From positions 82,618 through 146,617 of IMG/VR virus record IMGVR_UViG_3300033183_000212: DNA of 64,000 bases. One strand, 5' to 3'. A program made the position numbers and the translations under genes. This DNA is from a virus. Within the stretch, counting starts at the first letter, position 1; the number at the start of each line of letters is the position of its first letter. The notes beneath the pieces were generated by a model. The model did no database searches. It was not told where the DNA came from and saw only the letters and a list, made by a program, of their open reading frames with translations. Of this stretch, positions 9,549-60,190 are shown one piece after another.

Positions 9549-10928
9549 ATGGCAGCGATCATTACAGACAGTTTGAGAAAGTTAGTAGCAAACGCTCTGC
9601 TAACAGAGATTACCGACACCACAGACTCTGATCAATACTATATTGGTATTGGTAAGGCTGACGCCTATGATGACAGTGATATCACGGCAACTCCAATCAG
9701 AACTTTAAGAGAAGAGAGAATTGCTCGTGCAAACTTGCAGTCAGTTAAGAAAGTCACGGCGTCTGATGCAACCTTTGTTATTCCTCGCTACAACTGGACT
9801 TCTGGTACGATCTACAGCGGTTATAACGACAACGTTGCCGGACTTCCTTCAAACGCATACTACGTGCTGACTGAAGCAAATGAAGTTTATATCTGTATCC
9901 AACAAGGTAGAAACACAGCTGGTACTGCCGTTCAGTCAACAGTAGTTCCTAGCTATACAACAGCAGGTGTAGCTCAAACTGCAGTGTTTGAAACATCTGA
10001 CGGATACAGATGGAAACTGATGTATTCCTTATCTGCTGTAAATATCAACAACTTTCTATCGGCAAACTATATGCCGATTGAATACATTACAGATTCTCCT
10101 AACGCAGTTGGTATCACGTCTCAAGCATCTCAACAATCATCTATTCAAGATGCCGCTGTAGCTGGTCAGATCGTTGGTGTTAGAATCACAGCTCAGGGGT
10201 CAGGATATACATCTGCTCCTACTGTAACGATCAGAGGAAACGGTACCGCCGCGGCGGCAACAGCTACAGTATCTGGTGGTAAGGTTGTAAAGATTGAAAT
10301 GAACAACACTACTACCGCACTGGGTTCTGGCTACTCATATGCTAGTGTACACATTACTGGAGGTGGTGGTACAGGTGCTACGGCCGAACCTATCATCGGT
10401 CCGTTGAATGGAATCGGTTCTGATGCTAGAGATGAACTGAAGGCCACTTCACTTATGCTTACAGTGAAGCCTGACGGAGACGAAGGCGGCACGTTCCTGA
10501 TTGATGATCAAGACTTCCGACAAATCGTTCTGTTTAAGAACCTTGAACAAAAAGACAGTGCTTCGGCTGGTCCTATCTTCACTGCTAATACAGGTAAAGC
10601 TCTCAGAGCTGTTGAAGTCTTGTCTGGTGCTGACCTTAATGTAGATGCATTGATGACAAAAGATTCAGCGTCTGCATATATAGATCATATCGATGGAAAC
10701 ACTGTTTTCTATCACCAGAACGAAAACACAGGATTTGGCACGTTTAATAACGGTGCGGTGACAGACGATCAAACTGGTTCAACCACTATTGTTGCTGCTG
10801 AAGATAGCGGCGGTACCGGTGCTCTAGTAGACGCATTCACCGGTCAAGTTTTGTATATTGAAAATAGAGCTAAAGTTATTCGCAGCTCTAGTCAATCAGA
10901 AGATATTAAGATTGTACTTACATTCTAA
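9549..10928 (+). CDS. gp8: Baseplate wedge protein gp8
   Basis: 459 residues (T4 gp8 about 334). The conserved N-terminal part is visible: SDQYYIGIGKADAY near residue 30, NEVYICIQQGRNTAG in the middle, and the motif TSDGYRWKLMYSLS around residue 155, which is typical of gp8 in T4-like marine phages. gp8 joins wedge proteins gp6, gp7 and gp10 as a dimer. The extra length lies in a Gly-rich beta insert at residues about 205-290. An AACAGGAA ribosome-binding stretch lies 8 nt upstream. It is co-directional with, and 11 nt before, the giant structural gene. Confidence 0.8.
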   Translation: MAAIITDSLRKLVANALLTEITDTTDSDQYYIGIGKADAYDDSDITATPIRTLREERIARANLQSVKKVTASDATFVIPRYNWTSGTIYSGYNDNVAGLPSNAYYVLTEANEVYICIQQGRNTAGTAVQSTVVPSYTTAGVAQTAVFETSDGYRWKLMYSLSAVNINNFLSANYMPIEYITDSPNAVGITSQASQQSSIQDAAVAGQIVGVRITAQGSGYTSAPTVTIRGNGTAAAATATVSGGKVVKIEMNNTTTALGSGYSYASVHITGGGGTGATAEPIIGPLNGIGSDARDELKATSLMLTVKPDGDEGGTFLIDDQDFRQIVLFKNLEQKDSASAGPIFTANTGKALRAVEVLSGADLNVDALMTKDSASAYIDHIDGNTVFYHQNENTGFGTFNNGAVTDDQTGSTTIVAAEDSGGTGALVDAFTGQVLYIENRAKVIRSSSQSEDIKIVLTF

Positions 10929-35770: not shown

Positions 35771-36410
35771 GAGAAGATTCAAACAGAGGATGGGAGATCA
35801 TAAAAGATCTAAAAAATTTAGGGGTATCGGATTTGATTACGAGATACTTGAAGAATCTACTGATAGATCTTATATTGAAAAACAAGAAGAGTATTGGATT
35901 CAGAAACTAGATACTTATAACAATGGATTGAATGAAAGTCCTAGTGGAAAAGGTTGGGGTCATAACTCATCGAACTTTACTACATTAGGATTTGTTTTCT
36001 CAGATGAATCTCGTAAAAGAATGAGTGAATCTGCTAAGAAAAGAGCAGATAAAGAAGGATTCGAAGTAAGATCTCAAAGAAGCAAGGATAACTATAAGAA
36101 TCCTGAATATCTTGCAAAGCAGAAGAATGCTAAGAATGGTAAGAGACTTAGACCTCCTAAAATAAGTGATGAGCAAGTTGATAATATAAGAACCCATTAT
36201 AAAAAAGAATATGATTCTTTGGTTGAACATTGTAAGAAAATAAACGAAGAAAGACATAAAAAGAATCCAAGTTGGAGAAAGACAAATCCTGGCATTGAGT
36301 TTGGTAAACTCTATCAAAATCAATATAATTGTTCAGGTAAAATGTTGGAGCTTATAGTATTATGGAAAACAAGAACCAAGATTCTACCAGCACTTTATGG
36401 GAAGAACTAA
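35685..36410 (+). CDS. GIY-YIG homing endonuclease with NUMOD3-like repeats
   Basis: 241 residues. The N-terminal domain has VVYLLKR and YVGIT in place of GIY and YIG, the catalytic Arg in LKRRFKQRMGDH, and the conserved Glu in IEKQEEYWIQKL (about 68). Residues about 102-125 (GFVFSDESRKRMSESAKKR) are a NUMOD3 DNA-binding motif, and the Lys/Arg-rich C-terminus probably binds the target. It should cut intein-free gp17 alleles and so spread the element. It is AT-rich compared with the terminase exons. It has its own AGGGGA site and late promoter. It overlaps the terminase N half (86 nt) and the next ORF (49 nt). Confidence 0.88.
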   Translation: MTQSTQEESVVYLLKRKSDSEPYVGITLKRRFKQRMGDHKRSKKFRGIGFDYEILEESTDRSYIEKQEEYWIQKLDTYNNGLNESPSGKGWGHNSSNFTTLGFVFSDESRKRMSESAKKRADKEGFEVRSQRSKDNYKNPEYLAKQKNAKNGKRLRPPKISDEQVDNIRTHYKKEYDSLVEHCKKINEERHKKNPSWRKTNPGIEFGKLYQNQYNCSGKMLELIVLWKTRTKILPALYGKN

Positions 36411-49473: not shown

Positions 49474-50829
49474 ATGCAATCGTACGATAAACTCGTAGAA
49501 AAGTGGGCTCCGGTTCTGAACGAAGAGTCAGCCGGCGTCATTAAGGATGCACACCGTAGAGCTGTTACGGCTGCCATCCTTGAAAACCAAGAGAAAGCCT
49601 TCCGTGAGCAACGTGCTCAGTGGGGCATGTTGAGCGAAGCTCCGACAAACAGCGCCGTTGACGGCACAGTTTCCGGTGGTGGTGCTGCTGATAACTGGGA
49701 TCCGGTCCTGATCGCCCTGGTTCGTCGCGCTATGCCTAACCTGATGGCCTATGACATCTGTGGCGTTCAGCCTATGTCTGGTCCTACCGGCTTGATCTTC
49801 GCCATGAAGAGCGTCTACAAGAGAACCAAAGCTGGTGTTTCGGTTGGCGATGAAGCTCTGTTTAACGAGCCTGCTGTTGGCTTCTCTGGTGACTCGAACG
49901 CTACTGCCAATGGCGGTACTTCTGGTCTCGAGAGCGTCAGTGACACCGACACTGACAGCTCGATCGTTGACTCTGGTGCCTCGTATATTCCCACCTTGGG
50001 CGACGCTTACACCACGACCGAAGCTGAAAACCTCGGCACGGCTTCTGAAGCCTTTGCTGAAATGGGTTTCACAATCGAGAAAGCCACTGTTACAGCTAAG
50101 AGCCGTGCTCTGAAAGCTGAGTACAGCTTGGAATTGGCTCAGGACTTGAAAGCAATTCATGGCCTGGACGCTGAAACCGAGTTGGCCAACATCCTGTCGA
50201 CAGAGATTCTGGCTGAAATCAACCGTGAAGTTGTTCGCACGATCAACTCACAAGCCAAGATCGGTGCTCGTCAAGACGGCCTGCAAGTTAAGGGTATCTT
50301 TAACCTCTCGACCGACGCCGATGGCCGTTGGAGCGTTGAGAGGTTCAAGGGTCTGATCATGCAGATCGAGCGTGAAGCCAACACAATCGCTAAAGAGACC
50401 AGACGTGGTAAGGGCAACTTTATCATGTGCTCGAGCGATGTTGCTTCGGCCCTGGCAGCTTCGGGTATGTTGGACTATGCTCCGGCTATGGCTACCAACC
50501 TGCAAGTTGACGACACAGGCAACACCTTTGCTGGTGTCCTGAACGGTCGCACCCGTGTCTACATCGATCCGTATGCAACCGGTGATTACGTCACTGTTGG
50601 CTACAAGGGTACCAACCCCTACGACGCTGGTTTGTTCTACTGCCCGTACGTTCCTCTGACGATGGTTCGTGCTGTTGGTGAGGACACTTTCCAGCCGAAG
50701 ATTGGCTTCAAGACCCGTTATGGCATGGCTTCGAACCCCTTCGTTGGTTCTTCGCCCGCCGACGGTCTGGCCACGGTTCGTACGAACCAATACTATCGTG
50801 TATTCCGCGTGGACAACATCCTCGCCTAA
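49474..50829 (+). CDS. gp23: Major capsid protein gp23
   Basis: 451 residues (T4 gp23 about 521). Typical T4-type sequence: LVEKWAPVLNEESAGVIKDA at the start, NLMAYDICGVQPMSGPTGLI in the body, then RFKGLIMQIEREANTIAKET and NPFVGSSPADGLAT near the end. The expected gp21 cut lies after Glu55 in GMLSE-APTNS, which fits the L-x-E rule and would release a 55-residue propeptide. Codon use is strongly biased to C-ending codons, as in highly expressed genes. A perfect terminator follows 38 nt after the stop. No separate gp24 vertex gene is seen next to it. Confidence 0.97.
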   Translation: MQSYDKLVEKWAPVLNEESAGVIKDAHRRAVTAAILENQEKAFREQRAQWGMLSEAPTNSAVDGTVSGGGAADNWDPVLIALVRRAMPNLMAYDICGVQPMSGPTGLIFAMKSVYKRTKAGVSVGDEALFNEPAVGFSGDSNATANGGTSGLESVSDTDTDSSIVDSGASYIPTLGDAYTTTEAENLGTASEAFAEMGFTIEKATVTAKSRALKAEYSLELAQDLKAIHGLDAETELANILSTEILAEINREVVRTINSQAKIGARQDGLQVKGIFNLSTDADGRWSVERFKGLIMQIEREANTIAKETRRGKGNFIMCSSDVASALAASGMLDYAPAMATNLQVDDTGNTFAGVLNGRTRVYIDPYATGDYVTVGYKGTNPYDAGLFYCPYVPLTMVRAVGEDTFQPKIGFKTRYGMASNPFVGSSPADGLATVRTNQYYRVFRVDNILA

Positions 50830-50867
50830 TAAATGCGATAATAAAAGCCGGGACCACTCGGCCTTTC

Positions 50868-50895
50868 AAAGGACCCTTCGGGGTCCTTTTTTTTT
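50868..50895 (+). terminator. Strong intrinsic terminator after gp23
   Basis: AAAGGACCC at 50868-50876 pairs perfectly with GGGTCCTTT at 50881-50889 around a TTCG loop, followed by a run of T to 50895. A 9-bp stem with a UUCG tetraloop and U-tract is a classic rho-independent terminator. It separates the very highly expressed capsid gene from the next block. Confidence 0.95.
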
Positions 50896-50916
50896 GTGGT
50901 ATAATCTGTATAAATA
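50894..50916 (+). promoter_or_regulatory. Stacked promoters: extended -10 plus late octamer
   Basis: TTGTGGTATAAT (50894-50905) is an extended -10 element also present before gp55 and gp45. It is followed after 3 nt by an exact late octamer TATAAATA (50909-50916). Together they would transcribe the next genes in two phases. The gene start at 50923 is only 6 nt further, so a late transcript would be leaderless. Confidence 0.6.
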
Positions 50917-50922
50917 AGATCT

Positions 50923-51489
50923 ATGGCACTCACTACAAACTTCAACTATCTACAACCTACTTCCTTCAAGCTTGTTCTTGACAGGAAGAATTATCCTAAC
51001 CTCGAATTTTTCTGCCAGACCGTAACTCATCCTGGCATGATAATGAACGCAACTGAGTTGCCATACAAAAAAATCACGGGCATCCCCTTTCCTGGTGACA
51101 AGTTAACTTTCAACGAGTTATCTGCGAACATCATCCTCGACGAAGACATGAACGCCTACGCCGAGATGTATAACTGGATCCGCAGACTGTTGGATAACAA
51201 CCTAAGATCACCGTTAAACAGAACCGCAACGGCGCCGCCTCACTACGCAGACATTACTTTACACATGTTGAGCAGTGCAAACGAGACCACAAAGCAGATT
51301 CGTTACAGAGACTGTGTACCAACAGCTCTAGGTGACATTCAGCTTGAATCAACAGACACTGGTACTACGTTCATCACCTTTAATGCGTCGTTCAGGTTCT
51401 CATATTTTGAACTGCTAAATATAAGCAAGACAACTGGAGCAATCTCAGAATCGTTTACTGTGACAACGACTACTGGACGAGTATCTTAA
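50923..51489 (+). CDS. Tail tube-like protein (gp19/gp54 superfamily)
   Basis: 188 residues. The start FKLVLDRKNYPNLEFFCQTV followed by THPG resembles the first strands of tube-fold proteins (gp19, gp48, gp54). FNELSANIILDEDMNAYAEM and YNWIRRL correspond to the middle helix region, and FNASFRFSYFELL is near the end. It is likely a tube initiator or other tube-fold part of the baseplate, or the tail completion protein. It lacks a Shine-Dalgarno sequence: the ATG is 6 nt after a late promoter octamer. The exact T4 partner is unsure. Confidence 0.55.
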   Translation: MALTTNFNYLQPTSFKLVLDRKNYPNLEFFCQTVTHPGMIMNATELPYKKITGIPFPGDKLTFNELSANIILDEDMNAYAEMYNWIRRLLDNNLRSPLNRTATAPPHYADITLHMLSSANETTKQIRYRDCVPTALGDIQLESTDTGTTFITFNASFRFSYFELLNISKTTGAISESFTVTTTTGRVS

Positions 51490-51511
51490 TTTTTTATAAT
51501 GGAGTTATATT

Positions 51512-51958
51512 ATGATGGATCTTCAAACCATTCTAAGTGAGTGGGAGCAAGATTGTGTGATTAACGATATGAAGCTCGACGAAGCTTCTCGTGAATCTCC
51601 TAAACTACATGCCAAATACCTAGCACTTCTTTCAAACTATAAACTGATGCTCAAGCGAGCAGAGTTTAAACAAAAAGACCTGCTCAAAGACAAGTGGTTA
51701 TACTATAACGGAAAGATGGACCAGGACACTTTAAAAGAAAAAGGCTGGAATCCTGATCCGTTTGATGGCCTAAAGATTCTCAAAGGCGAGATGGAATACT
51801 ACTACGAGTCTGATCCTGAGATTCAAAAGTCTGAAGAGAAGATTCAGTACTATAAGACTGTGATAGATACTTTACAAGAGATCATAGATAATGTAAAGTG
51901 GCGCCATCAAAATATAAAGAACATCATCGAGTGGAAGAAGTTCCAATCAGGATCATGA
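51512..51958 (+). CDS. uvsY: Recombination mediator UvsY
   Basis: 148 residues (T4 UvsY about 137). LQTILSEWEQDCVINDMKLD at the start, SPKLHAKYLALLSNYKLMLK, a Lys-rich helix with DKWLYYNGKM, and KWRHQNIKNIIEWKKFQSG at the end are conserved UvsY motifs. It loads UvsX on single-stranded DNA covered by gp32 during recombination and repair. The next gene is UvsW, as in T4. Two adjacent ATG codons (51512 and 51515) could start it; GGAG is 7 nt before the first. Confidence 0.93.
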   Translation: MMDLQTILSEWEQDCVINDMKLDEASRESPKLHAKYLALLSNYKLMLKRAEFKQKDLLKDKWLYYNGKMDQDTLKEKGWNPDPFDGLKILKGEMEYYYESDPEIQKSEEKIQYYKTVIDTLQEIIDNVKWRHQNIKNIIEWKKFQSGS

Positions 51959-51966
51959 TTATATAA

Positions 51967-53460
51967 ATGGAAAAAATCGCGGTTTATAAAATTAACCATG
52001 CAACCATGCTGGTTAGATGCGATAGCGGTGTAGCAGCTGAATTAAATGAATTCTTTTCATTTTTTGTTCCAGGTTATCGCTTCATGCCAGCGTATCGCAA
52101 TAAAGTATGGGATGGAAAGATTCGTCTATTCAATGCAAGAAACAATTCTCTTCCAGTTGGTCTGTTTGATCACCTACTTAAGTTTTGTGAGCACAGAGAT
52201 TACGACCTAGATCAGCTAGAGTCAGACTATGGTGTTCCGGACTCAGCTAATAAGGTTCATCCACAGGAGATCATGTCTTATGTTCAAAGTCTTAATCTGC
52301 CTTGGGCTATTCACGATTATCAGTTCGATGCAGTCTGTTCAGCAATCCACAGAAAACGAGGGATTCTCGTATCTCCAACTGGATCCGGCAAATCCCTCAT
52401 TATATACACGTTGATTCGCTGGTACTTAGATAACTTTGATAAGAAAGTATTGGTGATTGTTCCTACCACATCATTGGTAGAGCAGATGTACGGTGACTTT
52501 AAAGAGTACGCAAGTAATGACGTATTTGATGCAGAAGGCGAGTGCCATAGGATCTATTCAGGTAAAGATAAGTTCTCAGAGTCTCGCGTTTATATCTCTA
52601 CCTGGCAATCGATCTATAAGTTTCCGCATGATTGGTTTTCAGAGTTTGGTGCTGTGTTTGGTGACGAGTGCCACGGCTTCAAGTCTAAGTCTCTCACTAC
52701 GATCATGGACAAGTGCAGTGAGGCTGAGTATCGGTTTGGTACAACAGGTACGTTAGACGGATCACAGACACATGAACTTGTATTGAATGGTTTGTTTGGT
52801 AGAACGTTTAAGGTTACCACCACTCGGTCATTGCAAGATAACGATACACTCGCTAAGTTAAACATCACTCGTTTAGTGTTGAATTATGATGAAAAGACTC
52901 GTAAGAATAACGTGGGCTTGACTTATCAAGATGAGATTGATTATATTGTAAGAAACGATAAGCGTAATAAACTTATTCGTAACCTAGCGTTAGACCAAAA
53001 AGGTAATACACTCGTCTTGTTTCAATATGTAGACAAACACGGTAAACCTCTGTTTGATCTTATCAGAGATAAGGCTGCTGAAGGCCGTAAGGTTTTCTTT
53101 GTTTCTGGCCAGACAGAGACGACAGATAGAGAGGCCATTCGTAAATTAACAGAGTCTCAGAAAGACGCGATCATTGTAGCTTCTCTAGGTACATTCTCGA
53201 CAGGGATAAATATTAGAAACCTACATAATATTATATTTGCTTCTCCATCTAAGTCGCAGATACGAGTGTTACAAAGTATCGGCCGAGGATTGAGAAAGAG
53301 TGACGATGGACGTCCTACTCAACTATTCGATATCTCAGATGATATGTCTCATAAAGGAAGAAAAAACTTTTCTCTGCTTCATTCCTTTGAAAGGCTAAAG
53401 ATGTATCAGAGCGAGAAGTTCGATTATAAAACTTACGGAATAGACATCGATGGAACTTAA
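51967..53460 (+). CDS. uvsW: DNA helicase UvsW
   Basis: 497 residues (T4 UvsW about 503). An N-terminal small domain (residues 1-110, ending HPQEIMSYVQSLNLPWAIHD) is followed by an SF2 helicase: Walker A PTGSGKS (137-143), DECH (233-236), STWQSIYK, and motif VI LQSIGRGLRKSD near residue 443. It unwinds branched DNA and R-loops, promoting the switch from origin-dependent to recombination-dependent replication. It overlaps the following small gene by 11 nt. Confidence 0.95.
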   Translation: MEKIAVYKINHATMLVRCDSGVAAELNEFFSFFVPGYRFMPAYRNKVWDGKIRLFNARNNSLPVGLFDHLLKFCEHRDYDLDQLESDYGVPDSANKVHPQEIMSYVQSLNLPWAIHDYQFDAVCSAIHRKRGILVSPTGSGKSLIIYTLIRWYLDNFDKKVLVIVPTTSLVEQMYGDFKEYASNDVFDAEGECHRIYSGKDKFSESRVYISTWQSIYKFPHDWFSEFGAVFGDECHGFKSKSLTTIMDKCSEAEYRFGTTGTLDGSQTHELVLNGLFGRTFKVTTTRSLQDNDTLAKLNITRLVLNYDEKTRKNNVGLTYQDEIDYIVRNDKRNKLIRNLALDQKGNTLVLFQYVDKHGKPLFDLIRDKAAEGRKVFFVSGQTETTDREAIRKLTESQKDAIIVASLGTFSTGINIRNLHNIIFASPSKSQIRVLQSIGRGLRKSDDGRPTQLFDISDDMSHKGRKNFSLLHSFERLKMYQSEKFDYKTYGIDIDGT

Positions 53461-53842
53461 ACAGTTTAAACTTACAAATGATGATGAGATTATTTGTGAA
53501 GTCGTAAAATGGACAGACGATGGAGATATTATAGTGCAAAGTGCTCTGCGCATCGTACAAGGCGAAGATCCTATGCGAGGAGTTCGCTTTTATTTCTTTA
53601 GACCCTTTATGGTATTTCAAAGTAATATGCCTCAAAGGATTAACGCGTCTCATGTTATCGCAGAAGCTGATCCTACAGAAGAGATGATGGAGCACTATGC
53701 CGGTGCAATCAACGATGAGATAGATCGAGTAAAAGACAGGAAAACAGTTACAGAAGATGACATTGCAGAATACAGACAAAAGATCTTAGACTTGTTTAAT
53801 CAAGATGATGAACCTATAACTGGAAAAAAACTAATTCACTAA
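53450..53842 (+). CDS. Conserved small phage protein between UvsW and gp55
   Basis: 130 residues. The first 60 residues (FKLTNDDEIICEVVKWTDDG, then DIIVQSALRIVQ) form a small beta barrel-like unit as in Sm-like proteins. The rest is helical and acidic. I have seen such proteins near uvsW in T4-like marine phages but know no function. It overlaps UvsW at the start and shares a base with the next gene, so it is part of the same transcript. Confidence 0.5.
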   Translation: MELKQFKLTNDDEIICEVVKWTDDGDIIVQSALRIVQGEDPMRGVRFYFFRPFMVFQSNMPQRINASHVIAEADPTEEMMEHYAGAINDEIDRVKDRKTVTEDDIAEYRQKILDLFNQDDEPITGKKLIH

Positions 53843-54480
53843 TGGCTTACCTCGTACATCCGCTTCCTGCCGTATCAGTTTACGTTCGTAAAGAATACTT
53901 GTATGACTTAGAAAAAGGTCACGGCGAGTACACGCCAGGAATCTGGATCTCAGTCAAGTCGACACAACACAAAGCTCTCTATTTTGAAACACTTCTTACT
54001 GATTACGGCGCTCTATATGACAAGCTTCCTATCTCTGCATTTGTTTGGAAGACTGATGTAGATCACTTTCTACCTCTTGATCACTTACAGATATGGGACT
54101 GTTTCGACTATCACCTCACCGTTATAGATAAACCTATATTGAATCGATGCGAGTTTTTCGGTAAAGATAAGAAGATGCATCCTGGATCATATCTGTTTAC
54201 GATCGACAACGCTCACTCAGACAAGAGTATCTTGGACACAAACTTTTCTGAACATGATCCAGAGCACAAGTCTTTTAACATCATTCAGTTAGACAACGGC
54301 CAGTTTGCTGCGCAGCCAAATAATCGAGTTGTTTGGCGAGACAGCAGTCTAACAATTCCAAACTTAAAGCAACCTGACTTTAAAGTTTGTACACAAAACT
54401 ATCAGGTAGAAGATACACCTAAGTGGTCATTAGGTGATACAGATGAATGGCAATACAAAACTGCTGAAGAAAAAATCTAG
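53842..54480 (+). CDS. Conserved hypothetical protein before gp55
   Basis: 212 residues, starting on the stop of the preceding gene. The sequence is rich in Asp, His and aromatic residues (WKTDVDHFLPLDHLQIWDCF, then GKDKKMHPGSYLFTIDNAHS, NNRVVWRDSSLTIPNLKQPD) and looks like a mixed beta protein. I do not recognise a family with known function; similar proteins appear near gp55 in T4-like marine phages. It is followed by a 141-nt gap holding a promoter. Confidence 0.5.
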   Translation: MAYLVHPLPAVSVYVRKEYLYDLEKGHGEYTPGIWISVKSTQHKALYFETLLTDYGALYDKLPISAFVWKTDVDHFLPLDHLQIWDCFDYHLTVIDKPILNRCEFFGKDKKMHPGSYLFTIDNAHSDKSILDTNFSEHDPEHKSFNIIQLDNGQFAAQPNNRVVWRDSSLTIPNLKQPDFKVCTQNYQVEDTPKWSLGDTDEWQYKTAEEKI

Positions 54481-54587
54481 TATATCCCTGCCCCGGCCTG
54501 ACAATAGGATTATACCATTTTTTTACGTAGTTGTAAACAACTATATGCACTGATGATTTGAGTTATAGCGAGTATACTTTTTGTTAT

Positions 54588-54604
54588 ACTTGTGGTATAA
54601 TATA
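54588..54604 (+). promoter_or_regulatory. Extended -10 promoter before gp55
   Basis: ACTTGTGGTATAATATA is identical over 17 bases to 57979-57995 before gp45. It contains TGG-TATAAT, an extended -10 for host sigma-70. No TTGACA -35 box is visible at the right distance. AAAGGAG follows just before the gp55 ATG. The 54481-54587 stretch shows no gene. Confidence 0.7.
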
Positions 54605-54621
54605 CAATAAAAGGAGCGAAC

Positions 54622-55200
54622 ATGAATAAAAAAGAAAATGTTCATTACGTGAATAACGCAGATTTTTCCAATGCCGTTGTGGAATATGTAAAATCTGCCA
54701 ATGAAGCTAAAGCCGAAAATAAAACAGTACCTATTGTACCTAACTATATTGCAGAGTGCTTTCTAAGAATCTCTGAAGGCTTGTCACACAAGTCTAATTT
54801 TATTCGCTACACCTATCGCGAAGAGATGGTAATGGATGCTGTTGAAAACTGTTTGAAAGCGATTCACAACTATGATCTATCGACTACTACTCGGACTGGC
54901 CGCCCTAATGCTTTTGCATACTTTACTCAGATCGCATGGTATGCCTTTTTGAGACGAATTGCAAAAGAGAAGAAGCAACAAGATATCAAGCTATCGTATC
55001 TTTCACGTGTAAATGTAGAAGAGATCTTAGGCTCAATTGATGAAGTGGATTTACAACAGACACAATATGTGGTAGAATCTTTGAGACAGCGGATCGATCG
55101 AGTCAAAGAGACTGATAAAGCTGTTAAGGAATATGGTAAGGTACAAAAGAAGAAACGCGTTAGAAGTGTTGATTCTGACTTAAGTGAATTTTTAGAATGA
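54622..55200 (+). CDS. gp55: Late transcription sigma factor gp55
   Basis: 192 residues (T4 gp55 about 185). VPNYIAECFLRISEGLSHKS, then YREEMVMDAVENCLKAIHNY, NAFAYFTQIAWYAFLRRIAK and EKKQQ form the region 2-like segment that binds core RNA polymerase and reads the -10 of late promoters. It recruits polymerase to TATAAATA with gp45 as coactivator. Several exact octamers in this window are its expected targets. An AAAGGAG site lies 9 nt before the start. It overlaps gp47 by 4 nt. Confidence 0.93.
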   Translation: MNKKENVHYVNNADFSNAVVEYVKSANEAKAENKTVPIVPNYIAECFLRISEGLSHKSNFIRYTYREEMVMDAVENCLKAIHNYDLSTTTRTGRPNAFAYFTQIAWYAFLRRIAKEKKQQDIKLSYLSRVNVEEILGSIDEVDLQQTQYVVESLRQRIDRVKETDKAVKEYGKVQKKKRVRSVDSDLSEFLE

Positions 55201-56258
55201 AGATTGCTTTTCTCAACGATACACACTGCGGCATCCGTAATTCGTCTGAAGTTTTTCTAGACAATCACGCAAACTTTTACGATAAGGTTTTCTTTCCCTA
55301 TTTGTTAGAAAACAACATCACGCAGATCATTCACTTAGGTGACTACTACGATCACCGCAAGTTCGTGAACTTTAAGGCGATGAACCACAACAGGAAACAC
55401 TTCCTTGAGCCTCTGCGCAAGCACGGCATCAAGATGGATATCATTCCTGGTAATCACGATACGTACTACAAGAACACTAATGACCTCAACTCGCTGAAAG
55501 AGTTGTTAGGTCACTATATGAATGAAGTACATATTGTGATGGAACCGTCTGAGCTAGAGTACGGTGGGTTAAAGATTGGTCTCATTCCCTGGATTAATCC
55601 TGAGAACTACGATAAGACGATGGAGTTTATTCGATCATGTAAGGCAGACATCATTGGTGCACACTTAGAGCTCAACGGCTTTGACCTGATGCGTGGTGTA
55701 AAGGCCACTGATGGCATGGATCATAAGTTGTTCTCTCGATTTGAGATGGTAATCTCTGGCCACTATCACGCTAAGTCTCAGAAAGATAACGTCTACTATC
55801 TTGGTAGCCAGATGGAGTTCTTCTGGTCAGACGCAGGCGATCCTAAGTACTTTCACGTCTTTGACACCGAGACTCGTGAATTCACTGCAATACGTAATCA
55901 CTACACTTTATTTGAAAAAGTGGTGTACGACGATGAGAAAATGGATTATAATACTTTTGACGTATCGGTGTTCAACAACAAGTTTGTGAAGGTTATAGTC
56001 GCAAACAAGTCTGATGCCTTTGTGTTTGATAGGTTCATTGATAGGATTCAAAACCAAGACATTTATGAGCTCAAGATTGCCGAGGACTTCAGTGAGTTTG
56101 TCGGTGAAAAAGTAGATGATGAAAATATCTCGTTTGAAGATACTAGTGAATTGCTGAGTAGTTATGTAGACGCAGTTGACACTGAGCTTGATAAGGCTCG
56201 CATCAAGACTCAGATGCGTGAACTCATGACTGAAGCACAAACTTTAGAAGTTGCATGA
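55197..56258 (+). CDS. gp47: Recombination endonuclease subunit gp47 (Mre11-like)
   Basis: 353 residues (T4 gp47 about 339). The metallophosphoesterase motifs are visible in order: LNDTHCGIRN, IHLGDYYDHR, IPGNHDTYYK, and SGHYHAKSQK. It works with gp46 as the phage Mre11-Rad50 pair that resects double-strand ends for recombination-dependent replication. It overlaps both gp55 and gp46 by 4 nt, so the three are coupled in translation. The C-terminal 100 residues form the capping and linking region. Confidence 0.95.
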   Translation: MKIAFLNDTHCGIRNSSEVFLDNHANFYDKVFFPYLLENNITQIIHLGDYYDHRKFVNFKAMNHNRKHFLEPLRKHGIKMDIIPGNHDTYYKNTNDLNSLKELLGHYMNEVHIVMEPSELEYGGLKIGLIPWINPENYDKTMEFIRSCKADIIGAHLELNGFDLMRGVKATDGMDHKLFSRFEMVISGHYHAKSQKDNVYYLGSQMEFFWSDAGDPKYFHVFDTETREFTAIRNHYTLFEKVVYDDEKMDYNTFDVSVFNNKFVKVIVANKSDAFVFDRFIDRIQNQDIYELKIAEDFSEFVGEKVDDENISFEDTSELLSSYVDAVDTELDKARIKTQMRELMTEAQTLEVA

Positions 56259-57991
56259 TAATTTTTAAAAAAGTACGTTATAAGAACTTTCTCTCTGCTG
56301 GAAACTCTTTTACAGAAATCAATCTAAACTCGACTCGATCTACTCTAGTGGTAGGTCAAAACGGCGCGGGTAAATCTACGATGCTTGACGCAATCTCGTT
56401 TGGATTGTTTGGTAAACCACACCGCAACATTAATAAACCACAACTGGTAAACTCAGTGAATGGTAAGCACTGTGTGGTTGAGATCGAGTTTACGATCGGC
56501 AAGAACGAGTTCAAAGTTCTACGTGGAATCAGTCCTGGTAAGTTTGAGATCTGGAAGAACGATCAGATGCTTAACCAGTCGTCTCATTCCAAAGAATATC
56601 AGAGGATCCTTGAGCAGAACATCCTCAAGCTAAATCACAAGTCCTTCCATCAGGTTGTCGTTCTTGGATCCTCTTCCTTTATTCCCTTTATGCAGCTTCC
56701 GGCTCACCATCGTAGAGAGGTGATCGAGGATCTGCTAGACATCAACATCTTCTCTAAGATGAACACGCTGCTGAAGGAGCAGACAAATTCATTAAAAGAA
56801 ACTATTAGGCAGGTATCTTATGAAATTGACATCAACAGAACAAGGATGGAAAGTCAAGAGAAGTACATACGTGAAGTACAATCGCTTACCAAAGCTAATG
56901 TCGAGAGTAGAGAGCTCAAGATTCTTGCGAACACTGATTCGATCGAACAGCTTCAGTCACAAAACGAAACACTTGCAGAAAAGATCGAGTGGAACCAAGG
57001 ATATGTGGATGAGCGACTACAAAAGCTTACCGACAAGCAGACGACGCTTGTCCAATATCAAGCTCAGTTTAAACAGCAGATGGCCAGTGTTGCCAAAGAG
57101 GCGAAGTTCTATGAAGAGCATGAGGATTGCCCGACGTGCTCCCAAGCTATCACTGATGATCTCAGGCAGCAAAAGCTTCATGACGCAAGGACAAAGGCAA
57201 AAGAACTCAAAGAGGCTATGGACCGCGCCGTTGCAGAGTCGAGTTCTGTTTCGGAAAGTCTTGCGCGAGTTAACGAGACCGTCGCCGAAGTCCAACGATA
57301 CCAGAGTACACTACTATCTAACACTAAAGAGATCGGTAGGCTACAGGACGAGATTAACAGTCTCAGAGATGAGATTAGTGGCACAGCTGTAGCAGACTTA
57401 AAAGATGCAAAGGAAGAGCTAGAAGGTTATAAGTCAAATCAGCGTGATCTACAAGAACGTAAGCTTACGCTGAACGAGCAGCAGCAGTACAACACTGTGA
57501 TCTCTGAGATGCTTAAGGACACGGGTATTAAGACAAAGATCATCAAGCAATACCTACCGGTTATAAACAAGCTGGTAAACCAGTACCTACAGGTTCTAGA
57601 CTTCTTTGTTCACTTTGATCTTGATGAGTCTTTTCAAGAGACTATTCGTTCTCGTCATCGTGATGACTTTACGTATGATTCTTTCTCTGAAGGCGAGAAG
57701 CAACGTATCGACCTATCACTTCTCTTCACCTGGCGCCACGTAGCGAAGATGAAGAACTCAATTGCAACTAACTTATTGATACTAGATGAAACCTTTGATT
57801 CGAGTCTTGATGCTGACGGTGTTGAGAATCTACTTAAGATTCTATATACTTTACCTGACGACACGAATGTATTTGTCATCTCTCACAAGGGAGAGATTCT
57901 AGACGGTAAGTTTGAAAACAAGCTTGAGTTCTATAAGGACAAGAACTTTAGCAAATTAAAAGGTGTACAAGATCCTGAACTTGTGGTATAA
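56255..57991 (+). CDS. gp46: Recombination endonuclease subunit gp46 (Rad50-like)
   Basis: 578 residues (T4 gp46 about 560). Walker A is GQNGAGKST (34-42), the zinc hook is CPTC (292-295) between two coiled coils (about 175-285 and 300-400), the ABC signature is FSEGEKQRIDLSLLF, and Walker B is LLILDETFDSSLD. It binds ATP and controls the gp47 nuclease. Its stop codon lies inside the extended -10 promoter of gp45. Confidence 0.95.
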   Translation: MIIFKKVRYKNFLSAGNSFTEINLNSTRSTLVVGQNGAGKSTMLDAISFGLFGKPHRNINKPQLVNSVNGKHCVVEIEFTIGKNEFKVLRGISPGKFEIWKNDQMLNQSSHSKEYQRILEQNILKLNHKSFHQVVVLGSSSFIPFMQLPAHHRREVIEDLLDINIFSKMNTLLKEQTNSLKETIRQVSYEIDINRTRMESQEKYIREVQSLTKANVESRELKILANTDSIEQLQSQNETLAEKIEWNQGYVDERLQKLTDKQTTLVQYQAQFKQQMASVAKEAKFYEEHEDCPTCSQAITDDLRQQKLHDARTKAKELKEAMDRAVAESSSVSESLARVNETVAEVQRYQSTLLSNTKEIGRLQDEINSLRDEISGTAVADLKDAKEELEGYKSNQRDLQERKLTLNEQQQYNTVISEMLKDTGIKTKIIKQYLPVINKLVNQYLQVLDFFVHFDLDESFQETIRSRHRDDFTYDSFSEGEKQRIDLSLLFTWRHVAKMKNSIATNLLILDETFDSSLDADGVENLLKILYTLPDDTNVFVISHKGEILDGKFENKLEFYKDKNFSKLKGVQDPELVV

Positions 57992-57995
57992 TATA
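57979..57995 (+). promoter_or_regulatory. Extended -10 promoter before gp45
   Basis: Same 17 bases as at 54588-54604, overlapping the last codons of gp46 (TAA at 57989-57991). It is 23 nt before the gp45 start, with CGGAG between. Use of a host-type -10 rather than the late octamer suits early or middle expression of the clamp. Confidence 0.7.
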
Positions 57996-58018
57996 GTTAC
58001 ATTCACACGGAGAATATT

Positions 58019-58696
58019 ATGGAACTCAGTGACAACACTCTCACAGTCCTAAAGAACTTTTCATCAATCAATCAGAACCTTATGGTTCGCGAAGGTAAGA
58101 CGATCAAGACGATCTCTGAAGCTCGTAACGTGCTGGCTACGGCCAACGTCACCGAAGAGTTTCCTAAAGACTTTGGCGTCTATGACCTGAGCGAGTTCAT
58201 CAATGTTCTTGGTTTGGTAGACACTCCTCGTCTTACTTTTCAAGATGAGTGTGTGATCATCGGTGACTCGACCGGTCGATCGAAAGTCAAGTACTTCTTC
58301 TCTCCAGAAGAAACCTTGACCACGCCAAGTAAAGACATCAAGATGCCTGATGCAGACCTGAAGTTTGAGCTCACATCTGATACACTCAGCAAGCTCAAGC
58401 GAGCAGCATCTGCATTAGGACACAGCGAAGTCTCTATAACGGCACAGAACGGTGTTCTAAGCCTGGCTGTTGTTGATAGTCAGAACTCAACTTCGAACGC
58501 GTTCAGCATTGATGTACCAGCTACGTCTGTCCCAGAAGTTAACTTTAACTTCGTGATGAGCATTGTAAATCTTAAGATCATCGCAGGTGACTATGACGTT
58601 GGTATCTCATCTAAACTCATCTCTGAGTTTAAACACAAAGAACTAGATGTAACCTACTGGATTGCACTAGAAAAATCCTCAACATTTGGAGCATAA
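58019..58696 (+). CDS. gp45: Sliding clamp gp45
   Basis: 225 residues (T4 gp45 about 228). The start LSDNTLTVLKNFSSINQNLM and the later VNFNFVMSIVNLKIIAGDYD, VGISSKLISEF are typical of T4-type clamps. A trimer encircles DNA, holds the polymerase, and after loading also tracks to gp55-bound polymerase to activate late genes. It is followed by small genes and the clamp loader gp44, close to the T4 order. Confidence 0.95.
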   Translation: MELSDNTLTVLKNFSSINQNLMVREGKTIKTISEARNVLATANVTEEFPKDFGVYDLSEFINVLGLVDTPRLTFQDECVIIGDSTGRSKVKYFFSPEETLTTPSKDIKMPDADLKFELTSDTLSKLKRAASALGHSEVSITAQNGVLSLAVVDSQNSTSNAFSIDVPATSVPEVNFNFVMSIVNLKIIAGDYDVGISSKLISEFKHKELDVTYWIALEKSSTFGA

Positions 58697-58700
58697 CGTT

Positions 58701-58907
58701 ATGGCAGAAGAGAAGACGGCACAGGATCAGGTAAATGAGCTGGCCAATCGAATTGGTCGCAGCACCGTCGCTGTGATCGATGCCATCACTCAGCGTGGTG
58801 GTTTTAAAGGTGAAGAGCTCACGACTATCGGTAACTTGCGTGATCAATGCACGCAGATCATTCAGTTGGTTGAGCAAGTTCAACAAGAAAAGGCTATGAA
58901 TAGCTAA
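58701..58907 (+). CDS. Small hypothetical protein between clamp and MazG-like gene
   Basis: 68 residues from the ATG at 58701, chosen because it follows the clamp stop by 4 nt and has GGAG 9 nt upstream; an in-frame ATG at 58686 would lie inside the clamp gene. The product is helical (DQVNELANRIGRSTVAVIDA, then EELTTIGNLRDQCTQIIQLV) and may be a helical hairpin. Function unknown. The last base is shared with the next start (TAATG). Confidence 0.55.
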   Translation: MAEEKTAQDQVNELANRIGRSTVAVIDAITQRGGFKGEELTTIGNLRDQCTQIIQLVEQVQQEKAMNS

Positions 58908-59176
58908 TGAACCGTTACCAGCAGTTGATGATAATCACCGCCGAAGAGTGTGGTGAGTTAGTTCAACGCTGTAGTAAGATGGTTCGTCATGCAGAACGTG
59001 CAGCCGATGTCGACGAGAAACAAAGAATAAAGTTTGTTGAAGAGGTCGGCGACGTTCTCGGCATGATCATGTTAATCGTGGAACATGGTTATGCGACGAT
59101 GCAAGAGTTGGAAGATAGAATTAAAGTGAAACACGATAAACTTAGAACATGGAGCGATCTATTCGATGGCGAATGA
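58907..59176 (+). CDS. MazG-like nucleotide pyrophosphohydrolase
   Basis: 89 residues. The metal-binding helices ITAEECGELVQRCSKM (EExxE) and FVEEVGDVLGMIMLIVE (EExxD) mark the all-alpha NTP pyrophosphatase (MazG-like) fold. Such proteins hydrolyse nucleoside triphosphates or alarmone-related nucleotides. Phage versions have been linked to dNTP supply or sanitising. It is a short single-domain form. It overlaps the clamp loader gene by 11 nt, so it is expressed with replication genes. Confidence 0.75.
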   Translation: MNRYQQLMIITAEECGELVQRCSKMVRHAERAADVDEKQRIKFVEEVGDVLGMIMLIVEHGYATMQELEDRIKVKHDKLRTWSDLFDGE

Positions 59177-60104
59177 TTTTTTATGGGTAGAAAAATACAG
59201 GCCACGCAAGGTGGCAGACACGATACTTCCACAAAATTTAAAAGACGTATTTCAGAAAGTAGTCGATGAAGGTACTGTACCTAATATGCTCTTTACTGGT
59301 ACTAGTGGTCTTGGTAAAACTACTATTGCCCGCGCTATTTGTAATGAGCTTGATGTCGACTATATCATCATCAACGGATCAGAAGAAGGAAACATTGATA
59401 CTCTGCGAGGAAAGATCAAGCAGTTCGCCTCGACAGTATCATTGTCAGGAGGTTATAAGGTAGTCATCCTTGATGAGGCAGACTATCTCAATCCACAATC
59501 AACACAACCGGCTCTTCGTGGTTTTATCGAAGAGTTCAGTAACAACTGCAGGTTCATTCTCACCTGTAACTTTAAGAACCGAATCATTGAACCTCTGCAC
59601 TCTCGGTGTGGCGTGTATGAGTTCAATACGAGTAAAAAAGATCTTGCAGGTCTAGCCGCTCAGTTCATGAAGCGTATGAAACACATCCTCGAAGAGGAAG
59701 GTGTGTCGTATGAAGAGATGGCGGTCGCAGACCTGATCATGAAGTTTGCGCCTGACTGGCGTCGTGTTATCAATGAGTGCCAGCGTTATTCTCTCACTGG
59801 CTTTATTGATTCAGGCGTCACGAAGAATTTAACAAATGATAACTATGACGAGTTGTTCAAGCTTCTGAAAGAGAAAGACTTTAAGAAGATGAGGTCTTGG
59901 GTTGCTAACAATATAGATACAGATGCATCTGCAATTTTTAGAGCTATGTATGATAGAGCTCTTGTAAAAGTTAAGCCGGAATCGATTCCTCAGTTGATCT
60001 TGATTCTTGCTGACTATCAATATAAGAATGCTTTTGTTGCAGATCATGAATTAAATGTTGTTGCATGTTTAACGGAAGTCATGGCGAATGTTGAGTTTCT
60101 ATAG
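59166..60104 (+). CDS. gp44: Clamp loader large subunit gp44
   Basis: 312 residues (T4 gp44 about 319). WVEKYRPRKVADTILPQ, then Walker A GTSGLGKT (45-52), Walker B VVILDEADYL near 105, and LHSRCGVYEF with the sensor/SRC arginine finger are present. This is the RFC-type AAA+ subunit that opens and loads gp45. In T4 it acts with gp62; no clear gp62 follows here (a tRNA and an unknown protein do). Confidence 0.95.
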   Translation: MANDFLWVEKYRPRKVADTILPQNLKDVFQKVVDEGTVPNMLFTGTSGLGKTTIARAICNELDVDYIIINGSEEGNIDTLRGKIKQFASTVSLSGGYKVVILDEADYLNPQSTQPALRGFIEEFSNNCRFILTCNFKNRIIEPLHSRCGVYEFNTSKKDLAGLAAQFMKRMKHILEEEGVSYEEMAVADLIMKFAPDWRRVINECQRYSLTGFIDSGVTKNLTNDNYDELFKLLKEKDFKKMRSWVANNIDTDASAIFRAMYDRALVKVKPESIPQLILILADYQYKNAFVADHELNVVACLTEVMANVEFL

Positions 60105-60115
60105 ATAATATAAAG

Positions 60116-60190
60116 GCCGGTTTAGCTCAGTGGTAGAGCAACCGCCTTGTAAGCGGTAGGTCGTCAGTTCAAATCCGACAACCGGCACCA
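60116..60190 (+). tRNA. tRNA-Thr (anticodon TGT), CCA encoded
   Basis: A full cloverleaf: acceptor GCCGGTT (60116-60122) with AACCGGC (60180-60186), D-stem GCTC/GAGC, anticodon stem ACCGC/GCGGT with loop CTTGTAA (anticodon 60148-60150), T-loop TTCAAAT, discriminator A and CCA at 60188-60190. The T-stem has one A-C mismatch (60166 with 60176). It reads ACA codons. It sits between gp44 and the next gene, on the same strand, without its own promoter. Confidence 0.95.

Follow-up and report, generated by a model that had tools for sequence, protein, structure and literature searches.

Probable early-type promoters before gp55 and gp45

We analysed a 64,000-nucleotide stretch of DNA (the window), which covers positions 82,618-146,617 of the 146,617-base virus record IMGVR_UViG_3300033183_000212, for a short motif, TTGTGGTATAAT, standing before the genes of the late sigma factor gp55 and the sliding clamp gp45, and for a second promoter that lies on the opposite strand upstream of gp55. 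Ten proteins around the motif sites were compared with PHROG families, and the gene set near the motif copies is that of a T4-like phage: tail tube, UvsY, a DNA helicase (annotated as UvsW in relatives), gp55, gp47, gp46 and gp45. The top match among named phage records was Phage C48C1 (Kyanoviridae), with 66 % DNA identity over 51 % of the query, and Synechococcus phages ranked after it. The features around gp55 and gp45 are the following, in window coordinates; lengths are in base pairs (bp).

53842-54480: gene of a 212-amino-acid protein, PHROG 3704, labelled ferredoxin (E 7.6e-102)
54480-54494, no strand assigned: GTATA followed by a C-rich pyrimidine run as read on the plus strand, starting 29 bases left of the minus-strand -10 box and conserved in relatives
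54509-54538, minus strand: predicted back-to-back promoter, GTTTACA..TGGTATAAT, an exact consensus match kept in relatives
54572-54601, plus strand: predicted early-type promoter of gp55, GTATAC (-35), 17-bp spacer, TGGTATAAT, an exact match to GTnTAC-N15-TGGTATAAT with a matrix score of 26.1
54622-55200, plus strand: gp55 late sigma factor (PHROG 234, E 1.8e-50)
55049-55078: further early-like promoter within gp55, ATTTAC..TGTGGTAGAAT, matrix score 21.1, 118 bases before gp47
57963-57992, plus strand: predicted early-type promoter of gp45, GTGTAC, 17-bp spacer, TGGTATAAT, an exact consensus match also found by the matrix
58019-58696, plus strand: gp45 sliding clamp (PHROG 223, E 5.7e-73)

The first-pass annotation of this DNA had reported the motif before the genes at 50923, 54622 and 58019. 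Exact copies were confirmed there (50894-50905, 54590-54601 and 57981-57992, all on the plus strand), three in the window against none in 100 dinucleotide shuffles. The 17 identical bases said to be common to the gp55 and gp45 copies were also recovered, as the block ACTTGTGGTATAATATA, found in the window only at 54588-54604 and 57979-57995. The gp46 open reading frame (ORF) ends at 57991, and the gp45-side motif overlaps its final 11 bases. With up to two mismatches the window was not enriched (9 matches vs 6.2 expected). The whole record holds four exact copies, and ten with at most one mismatch, all of them forward; at up to two mismatches there were 24 forward and 6 reverse matches, as compared with 8 and 12 for the reversed pattern. 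The motif signal resides in the exact copies, their orientation and the box upstream of them. This box had been overlooked at both gp55 and gp45, as had the minus-strand partner at 54509-54538.

Three exact instances of the complete form, GTnTAC-N15-TGGTATAAT, lie in the window (two plus, one minus), at gp55 and gp45. Across the whole record we found 15 exact matches to TACN15TGGTATAAT, 14 forward and one reverse, and the lone reverse match is the minus-strand partner at gp55. One more reverse-strand site appeared with one mismatch and four with two; up to two mismatches gave 29 forward and 6 reverse sites, against 13 and 13 for the reversed pattern. The flanks across the record show that most motif sites carry the -35 box GTnTAC at 17-bp spacing. 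Altogether 19 sites were examined, three inside the window and 16 outside it, and a matrix was trained on the latter. This matrix recovered four window sites scoring at least 16, compared with a mean of 0.07 in 60 shuffles: the gp55 promoter, its minus-strand partner, the gp45 promoter and the site within gp55 before gp47. Between -37 and -45, upstream of the -35 box, where T4 early promoters have an A-rich UP region, the 16 training sites, a set to which the gp55 and gp45 sites do not belong, showed a weak A/T preference.

The sites are not scattered inside genes, as 17 of the 19 lie outside any long ORF on the same strand. In the rest of the record, the same module stands before genes for DNA polymerase, a single-strand binding protein, a MazG-like enzyme and Hsp20; these are among the PHROG matches found for seven of the ten genes scanned after outside sites (10 of the 16 sites), the other three having no match. 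Two observations fit this picture less well. The sites at 9864 and 61944 are within long ORFs, and the DNA polymerase site ends just 7 bases before the first ATG of the ORF. Given so short a distance after the -10 box, the promoter at the latter site may serve something else or a shorter start of the polymerase.

T4 early promoters (Pe) are described as UP/-35/TGn/-10 (PMC2988021), and those of T4-like phages carry GTTTAC at -36 to -31 (PMC1524935). The sites described here resemble them in the GTTTAC-like -35 box, the TGn extension with a GT-rich stretch and the TATAAT, and the matrix from the window phage finds sites of the same form before T4 genes. In the first 50 kilobases (kb) of T4, it gave nine sites of at least 14 (mononucleotide shuffles: mean 0.35, maximum 2), seven of which share the strand of a T4 gene and lie 26-45 bases ahead of it, as counted from gene positions rather than from mapped T4 promoters. 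Unlike in T4, the third base of GTnTAC varies here (T, A or G), and some relatives use TTGACA. Considering the -35 box, the 17-bp spacer, the TGG extension, the -10 box and the location before replication genes, the copies at gp55 and gp45 appear to be T4-type early promoters that host sigma-70 polymerase would read, and this T4-like phage probably borrows the host RNA polymerase through them.

In T4, gp45 is a middle gene, and the sites could alternatively be middle promoters of the MotA/AsiA type, which need a phage activator and have a MotA box, centred near -30, where a -35 box would otherwise stand. About half of the T4 middle promoters have TGn before the -10 box, and one such promoter is present before gene 46 (PMC2988021). 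However, neither MotA nor AsiA had a family match in the record, which is possibly incomplete, and the T4 control was positive. Both sites have a sigma-70 -35 box at 17 bp, and neither 30-base site contains GCTT, as judged by reading rather than by a scan with a MotA box model, although MotA tolerates deviations from its box (PMC2988021). In addition, a marine T4-like phage is described as having no identifiable middle promoters, like phages of streamlined cyanobacteria (PMC9004378). We rejected the middle-promoter reading on the absence of MotA and AsiA from the record against the positive T4 control and regard it as very improbable. Where the first-pass annotation had left open early or middle transcription by host polymerase or a phage activator, the sequence at gp55 and gp45 favours the early-type mode with host sigma-70 polymerase; the phage activator is not retained, with no MotA or AsiA found and a -35 box present.

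Other arrangements of these promoters were seen elsewhere in the record. At record positions 2757-2800 (L031), the -10 of an early promoter runs directly into a late box, TGGTATAATATAAATA, and a small heat-shock protein gene follows. Promoter cassettes with common flanks lie at record positions 36196, 64262, 65442 and 71068 (L016, L020, L021 and L010), as if copied around the genome; an upstream flank similar to cttttgatatatttactttt is common to 36196, 64262 and 71068, and the downstream flank ctatctaacg to 36196, 65442 and 71068.

A predicted back-to-back promoter pair upstream of gp55

In the window phage, 35 bases separate the -35 hexamer of the minus-strand promoter from that of the gp55 promoter. 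Among relatives from the first search (80 loci, a count that includes the window, one locus having been dropped for too little upstream sequence), the window-phage matrix gave plus-strand sites of at least 12 in 48 of 80 and minus-strand sites in 22 of 80. At this threshold, control windows inside downstream genes yielded 4 plus and 0 minus sites out of 253. The enlarged set consisted of 281 gp55 sequences, including the window and C48C1, in which the same contig is often present repeatedly; 268 of them had 330 bases upstream and fell into 146 groups at 90 % identity.

The 146 distinct regions were scored with a generic sigma-70 model that is blind to spacing. A threshold of 11 was useless, as all 146 passed on both strands. 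At 18 and above, plus-strand sites were found in 119 of 146 regions and minus-strand sites in 106 (shuffles 3.6 % and 4.8 %, respectively), with both arms present in 97 regions, 96 of which had a spacing of 0-70. Minus-strand sites of at least 18 were rarer at control genes in distinct relatives: 10/40 at gp45, 5/49 at uvsY, 4/36 at the tail tube, 3/162 at gp47 and 1/130 at gp46, the first three rates exceeding the 4.8 % of the shuffles. Five of the gp45 minus sites had spacings of 5, 14, 15, 15 and 17 (relatives L057, L065, L076, L091 and L111) and five had a spacing of -53. On the plus strand, 35 of 40 distinct relatives have a site of at least 18 before gp45; before gp47, 39 of 162 reach this score.

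We also inspected eight hand-picked named phages besides T4. The minus promoter reached 18 in six of them, with spacings of 3 in ACG-2014j, 12 in S-RIM8, 3 in ACG-2014f, -16 in S-RIM2, 1 in Sf-CH5 and 5 in C48C1; those of 12 and 1 fit the phase described below less well. Upstream of gp55 in S-RIM2 (L320), the order of the -35 boxes is swapped, TTGACAgaacTGTCAA, with their centres about minus one helical turn apart.

The spacing, taken as the distance between the two -35 hexamers, was tested for phase against jittered sets. The spacings cluster at 2-5, 13-16, 23-27, 33-36, 43-45 and 53-56, and the phase at 10.3 bp reached R = 0.82 (n = 96; 0 of 5000 jittered sets). The phase persisted when each 75 % cluster was represented by its median (n = 54, R 0.75) and when the commonest spacings were removed (n = 32, R 0.62), again with 0 of 5000 jittered sets in either case. 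Between their centres, the -35 boxes are separated by approximately 1 to 6 turns of 10.2 bp; 85 of the 96 distances fall within 1.6 bp of such a value. The phase between the -10 boxes was nearly the same (R 0.80 vs 0.82), so it does not tell which part of the promoters is read.

One explanation of such an arrangement is a dimeric DNA-binding regulator that would bind the two -35 boxes as one inverted repeat on a single helical face and govern both promoters. The inverted TGTCAA..TTGACA or TGTAAAC..GTTTACA at about whole-turn spacing would suit such a protein, but spacings of 1-6 turns would demand looping or a flexible protein, and the same -35 box is found singly at other early promoters. As the whole account of the pair, we find this possible but doubtful.

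Changes of spacing were followed on the gp55 tree in 24 disjoint sister pairs whose spacing differed (the fuller tree holds the same 101 proteins). In 21 of 24 the change was within 2.5 bp of whole turns, in 20 within 2 bp, and the mean cosine at 10.3 bp was 0.61 (0 of 20000 jittered sets). This bears on a further explanation, in which the minus promoter acts as an antisense shield, keeping read-through of the upstream operon out of gp55, and the phase is a legacy of descent rather than of selection. Minus transcription would indeed enter the end of the upstream plus-strand gene. However, inheritance alone does not explain the phase, because the spacings of close relatives differ mostly by about whole turns and not by arbitrary lengths, and we hold the shield to be improbable. 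In the compared sequences, many related phages tend to keep the -35 boxes of the pair at whole-turn distances.

A number of points weigh against the phased pair. The pair was first noticed by eye, and the test, thresholds and range were chosen afterwards; the weights of the generic model were set by hand. Fifty of the 146 regions are outside the phase set, 49 with one or both sites below 18 and one with a spacing outside 0-70. Of the three queries added to the search, L111 and L061 carry the pair and L082 does not. Both arms reached 18 in just three of the eight named phages (ACG-2014j, S-RIM2 and C48C1), and before gp55 of T4, P-TIM40 and a Vibrio phage a pair was not clearly recognisable. 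Three of the 24 sister pairs are off phase (differences of 6, 24 and 26), as are spacings of 19, 31 and 40 among the 96, to which a lower threshold adds a spacing of 8. Finally, with the commonest class removed and the strictest threshold applied (n = 16), the observed value was attained by 2 of 5000 jittered sets.

The predicted minus-strand transcript and the copy before the tail-tube gene

From the minus promoter, transcription would enter the 3′ end of the gene at 53842-54480, whose 212-amino-acid product (PHROG 3704) had no Pfam match at E 0.001. Behind the promoter lies the GTATA/pyrimidine element, which is purine-rich when read in the minus transcript. Its GTAY anchor is present in 80 of 98 relatives, and in these 80 the distance to the minus -10 box has a standard deviation of 1.4. 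The distance to the upstream stop codon is 2-10, bar three mis-called cases. As both distances are fairly tight, the conserved element may belong to the minus promoter or to the end of the upstream gene.

No conserved ORF was found on the minus side among the 98 relatives. In 45 of them there is no start codon after a Shine-Dalgarno-like stretch on the minus transcript; in the other 53, the median ORF is 13 amino acids, with four at 76-97, and a small protein was rejected. Searches for known RNA families in 50000-59000 returned five matches, none at its gathering score. RNAalifold on 48 aligned sequences of the minus-promoter region predicted no pairs on either strand, but this is uninformative, as column-shuffled nulls were empty too. 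A short dyad is seen around the minus start (54500-54525), with a mean stem of 3.4 vs 2.5 in 2000 re-pairings (n = 56 relatives); its left arm precedes the likely minus start, and hence we did not interpret it.

A promoter without a conserved ORF behind it recalls replication origins, and the phased pair might be an R-loop origin in which the minus transcript stays on its template and primes leading-strand synthesis. The transcript would be purine-rich at about 10-21 nucleotides, given a start about 7 nucleotides after the -10 box. T4 oriF and oriG, which prime from R-loops, require about 100 bp that include a promoter (PMC3016281); their transcript start has no known coding role and they lie near recombination genes, a likeness that the predicted minus promoter may share. 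The layout of the minus unit is comparable, in that behind its predicted promoter stands a conserved element but no conserved ORF, and, as noted above, no other reverse site of this class in the record matches exactly. In contrast, oriF and oriG use a middle promoter with an A+T-rich unwinding element downstream, and here the promoter is early-type and the first part of the transcript is a C/G-rich stretch. GC skew showed no turn near 54.5 kb, although its 4-kb steps are too coarse to decide. We consider an origin unlikely.

The third copy of the motif lies before the tail-tube gene, where we predicted the following features.

50868-50889, plus strand: strong intrinsic terminator after the ORF ending at 50829, its U tract entering the motif
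50894-50905, plus strand: TGn/-10 element without a -35 box, between terminator and late promoter
50909-50916, plus strand: TATAAATA, late promoter box serving the tail-tube gene and kept in 29 of 36 distinct relatives
50923-51489, plus strand: tail tube (PHROG 45, E 5.1e-31)

The fold of 50840-50905 has -24 kcal/mol (z -3.17), and its stem-loop occupies the stretch where, at 17 bp, a -35 box would be expected. No box is present there, and the matrix trained outside the window did not pick this copy up. Upstream of the tail-tube gene in the 36 distinct relatives, TATAAATA was kept in 29, as listed, and TGnTATAAT in only four. With no -35 box, a structural gene behind it and a conserved late promoter adjoining it, the 50894 copy does not, by these sequence features, belong with the gp55 and gp45 copies. 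The conserved promoter predicted before the tail-tube gene is late, and the copy beside it is a lineage-limited -10-like element. Consequently, the placement of the motif before replication and recombination genes in the first-pass annotation holds for gp55 and gp45 and not for 50923, which is the tail-tube gene, with uvsY and the helicase gene following. The contrast drawn there with the promoter of structural genes breaks down at this copy, as TATAAATA begins 3 bases past the motif. A sigma-70 site and a gp55 site stand together also in the upstream region of cyanophage psbA (PMC5931967); at 50894-50916 an early -10 and a late box are likewise side by side, but here the early element has no -35 box and occurs in 4 of 36 relatives.

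Elsewhere in the window, we noted a tRNA-Thr (TGT) at 60116-60190, directly after the ORF 59166-60104; C48C1 also has a tRNA-Thr in the corresponding region.

Proposed working of the phased pair

Taken as a whole, the explanation by T4-type early promoters with a back-to-back pair kept in phase at gp55 appears to us very probable. Under this explanation, the host sigma-70 RNA polymerase would read the gp55 and gp45 promoters without a phage activator, and expression of the late sigma factor, of gp47/gp46 for the recombination nuclease and of the sliding clamp would precede late transcription. The gp55 promoter would be one arm of the pair. The other arm, the minus-strand promoter, would send transcription from the intergenic region into the upstream gene's 3′ end, yielding a transcript without a conserved ORF. 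Both -35 boxes would be on the same face of the helix, about whole turns apart, with selection keeping the phase. The most likely mechanism would be a factor that sits on one face of the upstream DNA common to both promoters and couples them; candidates are the alpha C-terminal domains of both polymerases over common A-tracts, or a dimeric regulator. Support comes from sequence analysis, namely the promoter form, conservation, phasing, the conserved element and the absence of a conserved ORF, and it is from these that we infer promoter activity, timing, coupling and a role of the minus transcript.

We also think it reasonably probable that cyanophage-related T4-like phages, including named Synechococcus phages, drive their late sigma gene by a helically phased unit of this kind, a promoter pair with -35 boxes 1-6 whole turns apart on the same face, in which a polymerase is influenced across the upstream DNA by the other one or by a common factor, and a conserved non-coding minus transcript is made. 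Bacterial bidirectional promoters, with starts 18 bp apart and a common -10 (PMC10268837), are similar in their divergent transcription, often non-coding on one side. Unlike them, the promoters here each have a -10 and a -35 element of their own, stand back to back and show about whole-turn -35 spacing. Our limited literature search, which did not reach the main cyanophage transcriptome study, met no phased divergent pair upstream of gp55, and we do not claim novelty.

As single promoters, the sites would be rather ordinary and would broaden the class of T4 early promoters to include a phage without a detectable MotA/AsiA middle mode. The phased pair is the unexpected part and matters more. 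It is situated at the gene responsible for the phage's switch to late transcription, and its spacing of about whole turns, kept while the intervening sequence changes and shifting by about whole turns from one sister phage to another, points to a physical coupling of the divergent promoters.

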